The translations under genes and the position numbers were made by a program. A stretch of 64,000 bases of DNA from Notolepis coatsorum (lineage: Eukaryota; Chordata; Actinopteri; Aulopiformes; Paralepididae): contig OZ020592.1 in NCBI GenBank assembly GCA_963971535.1, positions 129,406,180 through 129,470,179 of the forward strand, in the 5' to 3' direction. Of the stretch, positions 1 to 29,968 are shown piece after piece; the first letter of the stretch is position 1; each line of letters begins with the position of its first letter. The notes beneath the pieces are model-generated. The model was not told where the DNA came from. It made no database searches and worked only from the letters and a program-made list of their open reading frames with translations.

Positions 1-88
1 CTGTGTGTGTGCTGTACAGCCTTAACGGAACACTGACAGACAGGACGCTGGAGAATAATATGAGAGGAATGGTGCTACGAGTCGTCAC

Positions 89-289
89 TGTGTGTGTGTG
101 TGTGTGTGTGTGTGTGTGTGTGTGTGTGTGTGTGTGCGTGTGTGTGTGTGTGTGTGTGTGCATGTGTGTGCGTGTATGTGTGTGTGTGTGTGTGTGTGCG
201 TGTGTGTGTGTAGGTGTGTGTGTGTGTGTGTGTGTGCGTGTGTGTGCGTGCGTGCATGTGTGTGTGTGTGTACGTGCGTGTGTGCTGCT
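89..289. repeat. (TG)n microsatellite, interrupted
   Basis: About 200 bp of TG dinucleotides with scattered CG, CA and TA interruptions. A shorter (CA)n lies at 438-472. Open frames here encode only Cys-Val or Thr-His repeats and are not genes. Confidence 0.97.
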
Positions 290-709
290 TGTTTGTGAGA
301 GAGAAAGGATGCAAATGCAACGAGTTGTGTGTATTGAGATTTCGTTTGAAAGAAAATGACTGAATTACATTTAGCATGCTAGTCAAATTACAACATCTAA
401 ACACACGCACACGTACGTACGCACGCACACACAAAAAAACACACACACACACACACACACACACACACACACAGGGACAGACGGATGGCCACTTATTTAT
501 ATGCAATGCATGCAAAAGCGTATATCCTCATTTGCATCATGCTCTCTCCATGAAATTGCACAAAAAAAAAAAAAAAATTATTACATTGAAGACTGAAATC
601 TGCTAATTTCACGGTCTGGTAGAAAAACAAAACACCAAAACTGGCCGAAATTGTCACTTAGTTTGCATAAGAGCAATAGGACTGCAGACCCTGAACTAGG
701 TCCTCCATT

Positions 710-1002
710 GTGTGTGTGTGTGTGTGTGTGTGTGTGTGTGTGTGTGTGTGTGTGTGTGTGTGTGTGTGTGTGTGTGTGTGTGTGTGTGTGTGTGTGTGTG
801 TGTGTGTGTGTGTGTGTAGCCTCTCAATGACCCCCCCATACACATGCACCCACTCACACACACACACACACACACACACACACACACACACACACACACA
901 CACACACACACACACACACACACACACACACACACACACACACACAACACACACACACACACACACACACACACACACACACACACACACACACACATAC
1001 AG
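710..1002. repeat. (TG)n followed by (CA)n, hairpin-forming pair
   Basis: (TG)n at 710-817, a 36-bp spacer, then (CA)n at 854-1002. The two arms are complementary and could fold into a long hairpin. The mirrored copy in the right arm is at 16503-16791. Confidence 0.96.
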
Positions 1003-1313
1003 TCCTGTATAGCTCCCATGATTAAAGAAAAACATATATAGTTTTGTCAAACAATACCTTTTTACAAAACATACATATTTTCTGGGCAATCGTAGCTGGG
1101 AGATATTGTATTTATTCCAGTCGGGTAGAGAGTGTAGACCAAAAAGAGATGTATTGTAACCACACCACACCATAAATATGTAATAGTGTAAAGTGATGGG
1201 CACCATGTCTCTGTCGAGAACTGTCTAAAGAGAAAACAGCAAGGTGTCATGGGTAATGAGCCTTAAAATGCTGTGCTGACCACCAACTGCTTAAAATGCT
1301 GTTGCCCAATTTT

Positions 1314-1606
1314 CCTCTCTCTCTCTCCCTTTCTCTCTCTCTCTCTCTCTCTCTCTCCTCTCTCTCTCTCTCCCTCTCTCTCTATCTCTCTCTCTCTCTA
1401 TCTATCTCTCTCTATCCCTCTCTCTCTCTCTCTCTCCCTTTCTCTCTCTCTCTCTCTCCTCTCTCTCTCTCTCTCTCTCTCTCTCTCTCTCTCTCTCTCT
1501 CTCTCTCTCTCTCTCTCTCTCTCTCTCTCTCCTCTCTCTCTCTCTCTCTCTCTCTCTCTCTCTCTCTCTATCTCTCTCTCTATCCCTCTCTCTCTCTCTC
1601 TCTCTC
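1314..1606. repeat. (CT)n microsatellite at LINE 3' boundary
   Basis: About 290 bp of CT dinucleotides with a few TATC and CCC interruptions. It directly abuts the 3' tail of the LINE at 1607. The corresponding sequence in the right arm is cut by the assembly gap after a few (GA) units. Confidence 0.97.
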
Positions 1607-28069: not shown

Positions 28070-28315
28070 TCATGCACTAATGAAGCAACCTCGCCCTAAC
28101 TTCAGCAACATGAGGACTCTCCTTGACTTTCCCAACATCAATACTGTACACAGTGGTCTAGAGGAACGTGTACATGTTGCGCAGCATGGTGTTGTATGCT
28201 GTGCCAAACACATAATGTGCCTTAAAGAGTTCATCTAAAGCACCAAGAGAAGAGATTGACTTGCAAGGTATGGCCTTCTTGTCAAGAATGATGTAGAACC
28301 GGTGGATCGCGTGTG
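28070..28315 (-). pseudogene. C-terminal fragment of a second EnSpm-associated ORF
   Basis: Minus strand reads FYIILDKKAIPCKSISSLGA, LDELFKAHYVFGTAY and NMYTFL, then a stop. In the same frame TTVYSIDVGKVKESPHVAEV follows up to another stop about 10 bp before the transposase ATG. The family often accompanies EnSpm-like transposases in fish (from memory). The upstream part is lost in a GT microsatellite (28316-28385). Confidence 0.6.
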
Positions 28316-28555
28316 TGAGTGTGTGTGTGTGTGTGAGTGTGTGTGTGTGTGCGTGCGTGCGTGCGTGCGCGTGTGTGTGTGCACACAACCGATTCCGTGT
28401 GTGTATGGATATATATATGTTTGTGTCTAGTCTACTACACAGTTGTCAGAAATCAGGGTCTTGAGATGTCTCCAACATGTCTGTCACAGTATTGTACGTC
28501 GGAGACATCTTCCAACATGTATCTGACGAATGCAAAAGCATTCAGTCTCATTTAA
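28316..28555. repeat. GT-rich microsatellite and short unique stretch
   Basis: GT/GC repeats to 28385, then AT-rich sequence. GAGATGTCTCCAACATGTCTG (28463) and GGAGACATCTTCCAACATGT (28500) form a small repeat. No gene is seen. Confidence 0.6.
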
Positions 28556-29200
28556 TTTAATTCCAAACCGTTATTTAAACTCAAAAGGCAACAGAGGTTT
28601 CCCTCATTTACAGTCATGTCGAGTATTTGATTTGATTTGATTTGAGTGATTGATTTATCCCAAACATTAGGTAGCTTACCAATAAGGGCCTTAAAGGAAA
28701 ACTCCAAAATGTTGGGAAATGTCCAGAGAGAGACAAGAAGAGACAAGCTTAGCACAATGAATGGAAGTGGACATGACCGGGTAGCCTAGCCATTGTTCAA
28801 CTAACACCTCTCCCGAAGGCTACCCGGTCATGTCCGCTTCCATTCATTGTGCTAAGCTAGGCTAACGTGCAGCCAGATAGCTTTCTACTGAACATACAGA
28901 GAGGAAACTGGTATCTATCTTATTGTCTCTCTCTGGAGAAGACGGTAAGCAAATTTCCCAAAATGTTGGAGTTGTCCTTTACAAATGAACAAATTCCAGT
29001 GTTTGTTGCACCTCTCCATCAGTGGGGACCAACCAACCTTCTCATATAAAGGACACAGCGATGAGCATGGTCTGTCATCATTAGTGATGAATCTGAGAGC
29101 AGAGTGATATACAGAGTCCAGGGATGTAAGGGTTGAGGCCGCAGCACGCCTACAAATGACGTCACCATAGTCCAGGAATGATAACTCTCCACACACAAGT
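28556..29200 (-). mobile_element. LINE C-terminal fragment split by a MITE
   Basis: Minus strand at 28985-29200 reads LSFLDYGDVICRRAAASTL, SALRFITNDDRP and LYEKVGWSPL. At 28560-28690 it resumes with FKALIGKLPNVWDKS and a terminal NEGNLCCLLSLNN. Both belong to the C-terminus of one fish CR1/L2-like LINE family. The part between is the palindromic MITE 28693-28980. Confidence 0.78.
28693..28980. mobile_element. Palindromic MITE
   Basis: The left end AAAGGAAAACTCCAAAATGT is matched inverted by the right end ACATTTTGG-type sequence closing GTTGTCCTTT. Deeper arms (TAGCACAATGAATGGAAG at 28749 and CTTCCATTCATTGTGCTA at 28838) are also inverted copies. There is no ORF. It separates two halves of a LINE. 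Confidence 0.82.
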
Positions 29201-29204
29201 ACAC

Positions 29205-29655
29205 ATGAGCACACACACACACACACACACACACACACACACAACACACATGCTGCAATCACTTTAAACAAAATGGAAAGGTCACTTTAACGGAATGAGG
29301 AATATCAAGGTCAGGAAATAACCGATGTGGTTCTTGTATAGTATAGTTTAGATATAGTAAGTATAGCATAATGACAGAGTTAAAACTGTATATTGTATAG
29401 TAGTGTACATAGGACCCAGTGCCTTCTCAGGAATTTAGCATGTCTATTTTTAGCATGCACATCTTATATCTTCTTATTACCATTTTTAATTTTTTTTTTA
29501 TTATTTTATTATTAGTATTATTGCACAATCGATGCATGCATTTCACTGTATGCCCTGGTATGTAGACAAATAAACCTCTTGAATCTTGAACCATGAATAA
29601 TAAAACTCTCTCTCTCCCCACCTCTCCTCCCCCGCCTCTCCTCTTCCACCGCCAG
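29205..29655. other. Intron before GRID1 exon B
   Basis: (CA)n at 29208-29242, AT-rich sequence with a T-run (29491-29500), then a pyrimidine tract (29608-29655) ending CACCGCCAG, the exon B acceptor. Confidence 0.75.
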
Positions 29656-29968
29656 CGGGCCGACGTGGGCCTGTCCGCCCTCACCATCACCCCCGAGAGG
29701 GAGAGCGCGGTGGACTTCACCACGCGCTACATGGACTACTCCGTGGGCGTGCTCCTGCGCAAGGCTGAGCGCACCGTGGACATGTTCGCCTGCCTGGCGC
29801 CCTTCGACCTGTCGCTGTGGGCGTGCATCGCAGGCACGGTGCTGCTGGTGGGGATCCTGGTCTACCTGCTGAACTGGCTCAACCCGCCCAGGCTGCCCAT
29901 GGGACCGGTGTCCTCCACCACGCTCTACAACTCCATGTGGTTCGTCTACGGCTCCTTCGTGCAGCAAG
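29656..29968 (+). CDS. grid1: GRID1-like exon B (end of S1, M1, pore start)
   Basis: This is a 313-bp exon, phase 0 at the start and phase 1 at the end. The acceptor CAG is at 29653-29655 and the donor CAAG|GTGAGG follows 29968. It encodes [17 protein letters not shown], the end of the S1 ligand-binding half, then [14 protein letters not shown] and [19 protein letters not shown]. The first membrane helix runs through [22 protein letters not shown] and the pore-region start [15 protein letters not shown] follow. These fit GRID1 closely (LSLWACIAG and LNPPRL, from memory, differ in GRID2). It continues exon A in reading order, but exon A lies on the other strand. The following exon, with the SYTANLAAFL motif, is not in the window. 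Confidence 0.94.

Follow-up and report, generated by a model that had tools for sequence, protein, structure and literature searches.

The window analysed here, a stretch of 64,000 nucleotides from Notolepis coatsorum, contains one exon of a delta receptor gene that lies on the strand opposite to its neighbours, and it raises the question of whether this arrangement belongs to the genome of the fish or to its assembly. Positions are counted from window position 1, which equals C24:129406180, and zero or negative numbers denote positions to the left of the window. The contig carrying the reversed exon, exon A, is referred to as L, and the contig starting at 16156 as M. Copies were searched for in the genome of N. 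coatsorum itself (3.42 Gb, 4,787 contigs).

Identity, order and strands of the exons

The argument is centred on three exons, given with coordinates and strand (a slash marks an exon boundary):

C24:129395360-129395461, + strand: exon Z, which precedes A; intact, 102 bp, 34 codons, acceptor TACAG, donor CTG/GTGAGT
5454-5651, - strand: grid2 exon A; 66 codons, ligand-binding domain, PF10613; strand opposite to that of the preceding and following exons
29656-29968, + strand: grid2 exon B, directly after A; PF00060, PF10613

The gene had been named GRID1 in the preliminary description, an attribution that the bit scores do not bear out. Exon A matched delta-2 best (121 bits, vs 90 for delta-1), as did exon B (204 vs 115) and a copy of exon Z that is dealt with below (31.9 vs 13.4). 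GRID1 belongs to the same delta receptor family, but GRID2 (GluD2) gives far higher scores with A and B, and GRID1 was rejected, since delta-1 was the best match of neither A, B nor the exon-Z copy.

Exon A is delimited by CAG/GAG and AAG/GTAAGC and its last residues are GELVFK in phase 0, while exon B starts in phase 0 and has the 3' boundary CAAG/GTGAGG. On the solved GluD2 chain 9ooo_A, A corresponds to residues 424-489 and B to residues 490-593, and they are therefore adjacent. Splice sites and alignment thus agree with the original view that A and B encode neighbouring residues joined in phase 0. A GluD2 probe also matched exon Z, which sits on the + strand to the left of the left gap of contig L; its matched part stops at residue 422 and is followed by a leucine (L). 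Exon B and the five exon matches that follow it (aa 617-680, 665-733, 731-787, 786-867 and 866-1007) all lie on the + strand, in protein order and at rising coordinates from C24:129435832 to 129812375. From Z to the last of these matches, seven of the eight located exons are consequently on the + strand in protein order, leaving A as the only one on the - strand.

The - strand position of A would also be expected if it came from a different gene on that strand, a reading whose probability we regard as close to negligible: the residues encoded by A fall directly between those of Z and B, and other grid-like match clusters map to different places, C23:135.0-135.9 Mb and C24:106.4-106.6 Mb. The genome search for exon A itself listed one full-length match, its own place, and one partial match on the same chromosome (120 of 198 bp at 80%); it found no second full-length copy, and no + strand copy able to replace A.

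A further grid2 exon (aa 263-325), with splice sites that look good by eye, was located on the - strand at C24:129149396-129149584, approximately 257 kb left of the window and 246 kb before exon Z, hence in reverse orientation relative to Z, B and the exons after B. No inverted match of at least 300 bp was seen in the 80 kb around it, parts of which read N. It is possibly a second misoriented piece in grid2.

Assembly gaps and the inverted overlap

The following features surround exon A:

-6156 to -5957, no strand: assembly gap of 200 N at the left end of L
15956-16155, no strand: assembly gap of 200 N at the right end of L, the contig that is very probably misoriented
1-1344, + strand: window part of the overlap arm in L, continuing leftward to about -4470
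16156-21779, - strand: the same sequence in M, inverted, beginning at the gap within a GA/TC tract
27147-27417, - strand: continuation of the overlap in M, beyond extra sequence present only in M; pairs with L -4470 to -4200 at 98.9%

Contig L spans -5956 to 15955, is 21,912 bp long and contains no N run, each of its ends adjoining a gap of 200 N; a further 200-N gap is located at 38708-38907. The gap at 15956-16155 had already been reported correctly, together with the advice to look for another one just left of the window, where the 200-N run at -6156 to -5957 was indeed found. The contig had, on the other hand, been taken to start at window position 1, while its true start lies behind that second gap, at -5956.

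Within the window, positions 1-1344 match 17564-16156 in inverted orientation, the match starting at the first base past the gap. An inverse match of 1-1345 with 16156-17562, beginning at the gap, had been described before; its nature and its starting point hold, but the measured limits differ slightly and the match continues outside the window. The first overlap block aligns L -4163 to 1344 to M 21779 to 16156, with mismatches in 22 of the 4,608 columns aligned outside tandem repeats (0.48%), 11 of them right of -1972, i.e., outside a high-copy repeat. This mismatch is at a level that would be expected between two alleles. The 22 differing columns, the unequal lengths of several tandem repeats and the differences in inserted repeats led us to discard the idea that the arms are a fold-back copy of one molecule.

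The overlap was examined for copy number in the genome. It also has a second block, in which L -4470 to -4200 corresponds to M 27417 to 27147. The non-repeat segment 1003-1310, near the inner end of the arm, gave exactly two matches, itself and its inverted counterpart in M (both of the two candidates scored). For the segment of L from about -1970 to -10, full cover was provided by L itself and M alone among the 40 scored of 2,983 candidates; one 81-bp match at 82% was listed elsewhere. When six contig or window ends were tested with 1 kb each, such a match was common only to the left end of the window and the left end of M, and across 12 pieces of the window and the fetched flanks, matching at a piece end was confined to L and M.

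The overlap comprises approximately 3.3 kb outside high-copy repeats and approximately 2.5 kb of shared repeat, the latter (L -4470 to about -1974) being mostly high-copy and not diagnostic. It reaches the end of M and stops 1,486 bp short of the end of L, at the edge of a high-copy repeat, so that our own expectation, taken from no paper, of an overlap reaching both contig ends is not borne out. The earlier proposal that the arms are one overlap is supported in substance, but the overlap is longer than 1.4 kb and forms no clean dovetail, as the outermost 1,486 bp of L, a high-copy repeat, are absent from M at that place. M, for its part, has extra LINE-bearing sequence absent from L.

This geometry, with near-identical arms on both sides of a segment, could in principle reflect a real inversion, in which the arms would be true inverted repeats and the haplotype that was sequenced would carry the exon-A segment in inverted form, perhaps as a polymorphism driven by arm recombination; yet the same geometry would also result if a contig were flipped and its overlap left unmerged. 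The literature holds two points in favour of an inversion: in the mouse, replication stress makes Grid2 a recurrent hotspot of breakage and copy-number change (PMC13096501), and most misoriented stretches in human assemblies (31/38, 81%) coincide with true inversion polymorphisms (PMC10234299). Polymorphic inversions flanked by duplications, as treated in the latter source, resemble the present locus in their inverted, near-identical arms around a segment, and differ from it in that an inversion here would disrupt an otherwise intact exon series and that one arm edge lies exactly on a gap. An intact exon A, for which no second full-length match is listed, would lie backwards between intact exons, which would leave grid2 broken. 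Gaps moreover bound the contig on both sides, with the right arm beginning exactly at one of them; the mismatch between the arms is at the level expected of alleles; and both a duplication and an inversion would be required, vs a single scaffolding error. We therefore consider a real inversion highly unlikely.

Repeats and a decayed exon copy

The repeats that bear on the structure of the two contigs are:

1315-1606, + strand: CT tract; M begins inside the counterpart of this tract
1607-5302, - strand: LINE with an open 1177-aa frame, within the CT tract; its 5' end was placed from the flanking repeat, not independently
5303-5431, + strand: other half of the CT tract, adjoining exon A
13375-15955, + strand: fragment of a Copia-type retrotransposon (gag, zinc knuckle, pre-integrase), cut off at the right end of L
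22073-26107, - strand: LINE frames (endonuclease, reverse transcriptase) in the M-only sequence

M begins within a GA/TC tract, and in a study of human assemblies 27.4% of gaps correspond to high GA/TC tracts (PMC10234299). The CT tract of L is of low complexity and is split by the LINE, and a false join within it could have linked the overlap arm to exon A, making L chimeric. An exact 24-bp direct repeat (TCCC followed by ten TC units) is nonetheless found at both ends of the LINE, at 1583-1606 and 5303-5326, like a target-site duplication in one tract, which is suggestive and no proof. Among 28,783 placements of the two halves of the CT tract, an exact 24-mer occurs in 2,645, and one containing CCC in only 23. 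The repeat would fit a single LINE insertion into a single tract, a suggestive pattern that makes a false join less likely at the LINE, though not at other points of the tract. Exon A and the arm, which lie on either side of the tract, furthermore both demand the same reversal of L, and a chimeric L appears very remote, still less probable than a real inversion.

At the left end of L, the outermost 1,486 bp (L003:4044-5529, window -5956 to -4471) are a high-copy repeat with no match in M. All 40 scored places, itself included, out of 1,960 candidates match it over the full length at about 100%, and it is probably young; in L it may stem from an insertion present in one haplotype only, or from a faulty contig end. 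The second high-copy repeat, which follows it (L003:5530 to about 8026, window -4470 to about -1974), is different, being present in both L and M and mostly 96-99% identical to many other places, and in M it is broken up by the LINE-bearing sequence. At the opposite end of L, a continuation of the Copia fragment was looked for in the last 204 bases, which are CT-rich, of the piece that faces this end after reversal, and none was found there. A Pfam search with the frame 20168-21049 gave no match.

Two other repeats were observed in the window. A tandem array at 11482-12646, between exon A and the Copia fragment, has a unit of 27 or 36 bp in 43.1 or 32.4 copies, with 89% matches. At 50451-54356, a LINE-like open frame of 1301 aa with endonuclease and reverse transcriptase is possibly young.

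The arms also contain a sequence that the preliminary description did not mention, a degenerate copy of exon Z:

19-91, + strand: degenerate exon-Z copy in L, with the 5' part and the splice donor lost
17474-17546, - strand: degenerate exon-Z copy in M, counterpart of the copy in L

The copy in L and that in M reach 39.3 and 37.0 bits, whereas none of 21 decoys (20 shuffled probes and one reversed) exceeded 25.0. Window positions 1-92 have three places in the genome, namely the two arms and C24:129395385 on the + strand, which is the intact exon Z. Arm copy and intact exon Z can be aligned over approximately 0.9 kb, with 48 mismatches among the 485 columns that are aligned within the first 520 of the alignment. 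The best donor score of the copy, obtained with a hand-entered weight table, is 3.4 vs 11.1 for A and 10.7 for B.

If the arm copy were a working exon, it would count against a simple flip, because L would then hold Z on the + and A on the - strand, and M would hold Z on the - and B on the + strand. This possibility was rejected: an intact Z lies on the + strand to the left of L, and the arm copy is without its 5' part and its donor. The arms thus carry an old, decayed duplicate of exon Z within the A-B intron, oriented inversely to the gene once L is reversed. An inversion polymorphism can be imagined in which a ligand-binding exon of grid2, flanked by near-identical inverted repeats bearing the decayed preceding exon, switches in this animal between a functional orientation and an inverted one; it seems slightly less probable than a real inversion as such, which was judged highly unlikely above.

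Orientation of the contig and consequences for grid2

The explanation that we favour is that L is misoriented inside grid2 and that one stretch of the A-B intron is represented twice, in the left part of L and at the left end of M, probably from two haplotypes and left unmerged; we hold it to be very probably correct. It builds on what was observed, namely the gaps flanking L, the strands and order of the located exons, the inverted overlap and, where tested, the copy number of that overlap. Two separate signs within L, the strand on which exon A lies and the direction in which the overlap matches M, both indicate that L is reversed. Counting against the explanation are the outermost 1,486 bp of L that find no match in M, the LINE-bearing sequence confined to M, the non-diagnostic repeat that makes up about 2.5 kb of the overlap, the Copia fragment that does not continue in the 204 bases facing it after reversal, and the frequent coincidence of misorientations with true inversion polymorphisms in human assemblies (PMC10234299). 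The conclusion of the preliminary description that the exon-A contig is flipped is accordingly upheld: gaps lie on both sides of it, Z, B and the later exons are all on the + strand with A alone on the - strand, and the contig shares an inverted overlap with M.

At scaffolding, L would have been placed in the wrong orientation inside grid2, with the two versions of this intron stretch remaining separate. Upon reversal of L, Z (+), A (+), the decayed Z copy (-) and B (+) would follow one another, with the gene on a single strand and in order across the contig. The A-B intron would then measure 17,544 bp or 17,609 bp, according to whether the within-window part of the arm is taken from one copy or the other, in agreement with the previous estimate of about 17.5 kb. 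In the simplest reading, the two haplotypes differ by repeat insertions, and L broke off inside one of these. The two copies of the overlap are probably alleles, as far as their sequence can tell, and a true recent duplication would look alike. A single scaffolding error accounts for the strands, the gaps and the arms.

Both types of error involved in this explanation are known. Short contigs are a hard case for Hi-C orientation, with an error rate of 4.3% for 3D-DNA in one benchmark (PMC7672694), and the misoriented short contigs addressed there by HiC-Hiker resemble L, a contig of approximately 22 kb between gaps with its gene content on the wrong strand; the difference is that the present case is known from the assembled sequence. 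The error probably arose at scaffolding, short contigs being hard to orient. False duplications separated by a gap are likewise a known error type (PMC9516828). As in the heterotype form, two near-identical copies are found at one locus with an assembly gap between them, and their divergence is at allele level where tested, although a recent true duplication would have the same appearance; unlike in that form, the pair is inverted here, as one contig is very probably flipped, and inserted repeats set the copies apart.

Flipping of a contig whose overlap has stayed unmerged is a known type of assembly error and not new biology. The case can be made without reads, from the order of the exons on successive contigs, the number of places in the genome that hold the overlap and the gaps on either side. 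The earlier warning that statements of strand and distance across the gap are affected can now be given its extent, since strand, distance and inverted-repeat statements are unsafe across window positions 1-38707. For grid2 in N. coatsorum, a gene model derived from the current assembly would probably lose exon A or be split, and L may not be the only misplaced piece in the gene, as suggested by the - strand exon located approximately 246 kb ahead of exon Z.
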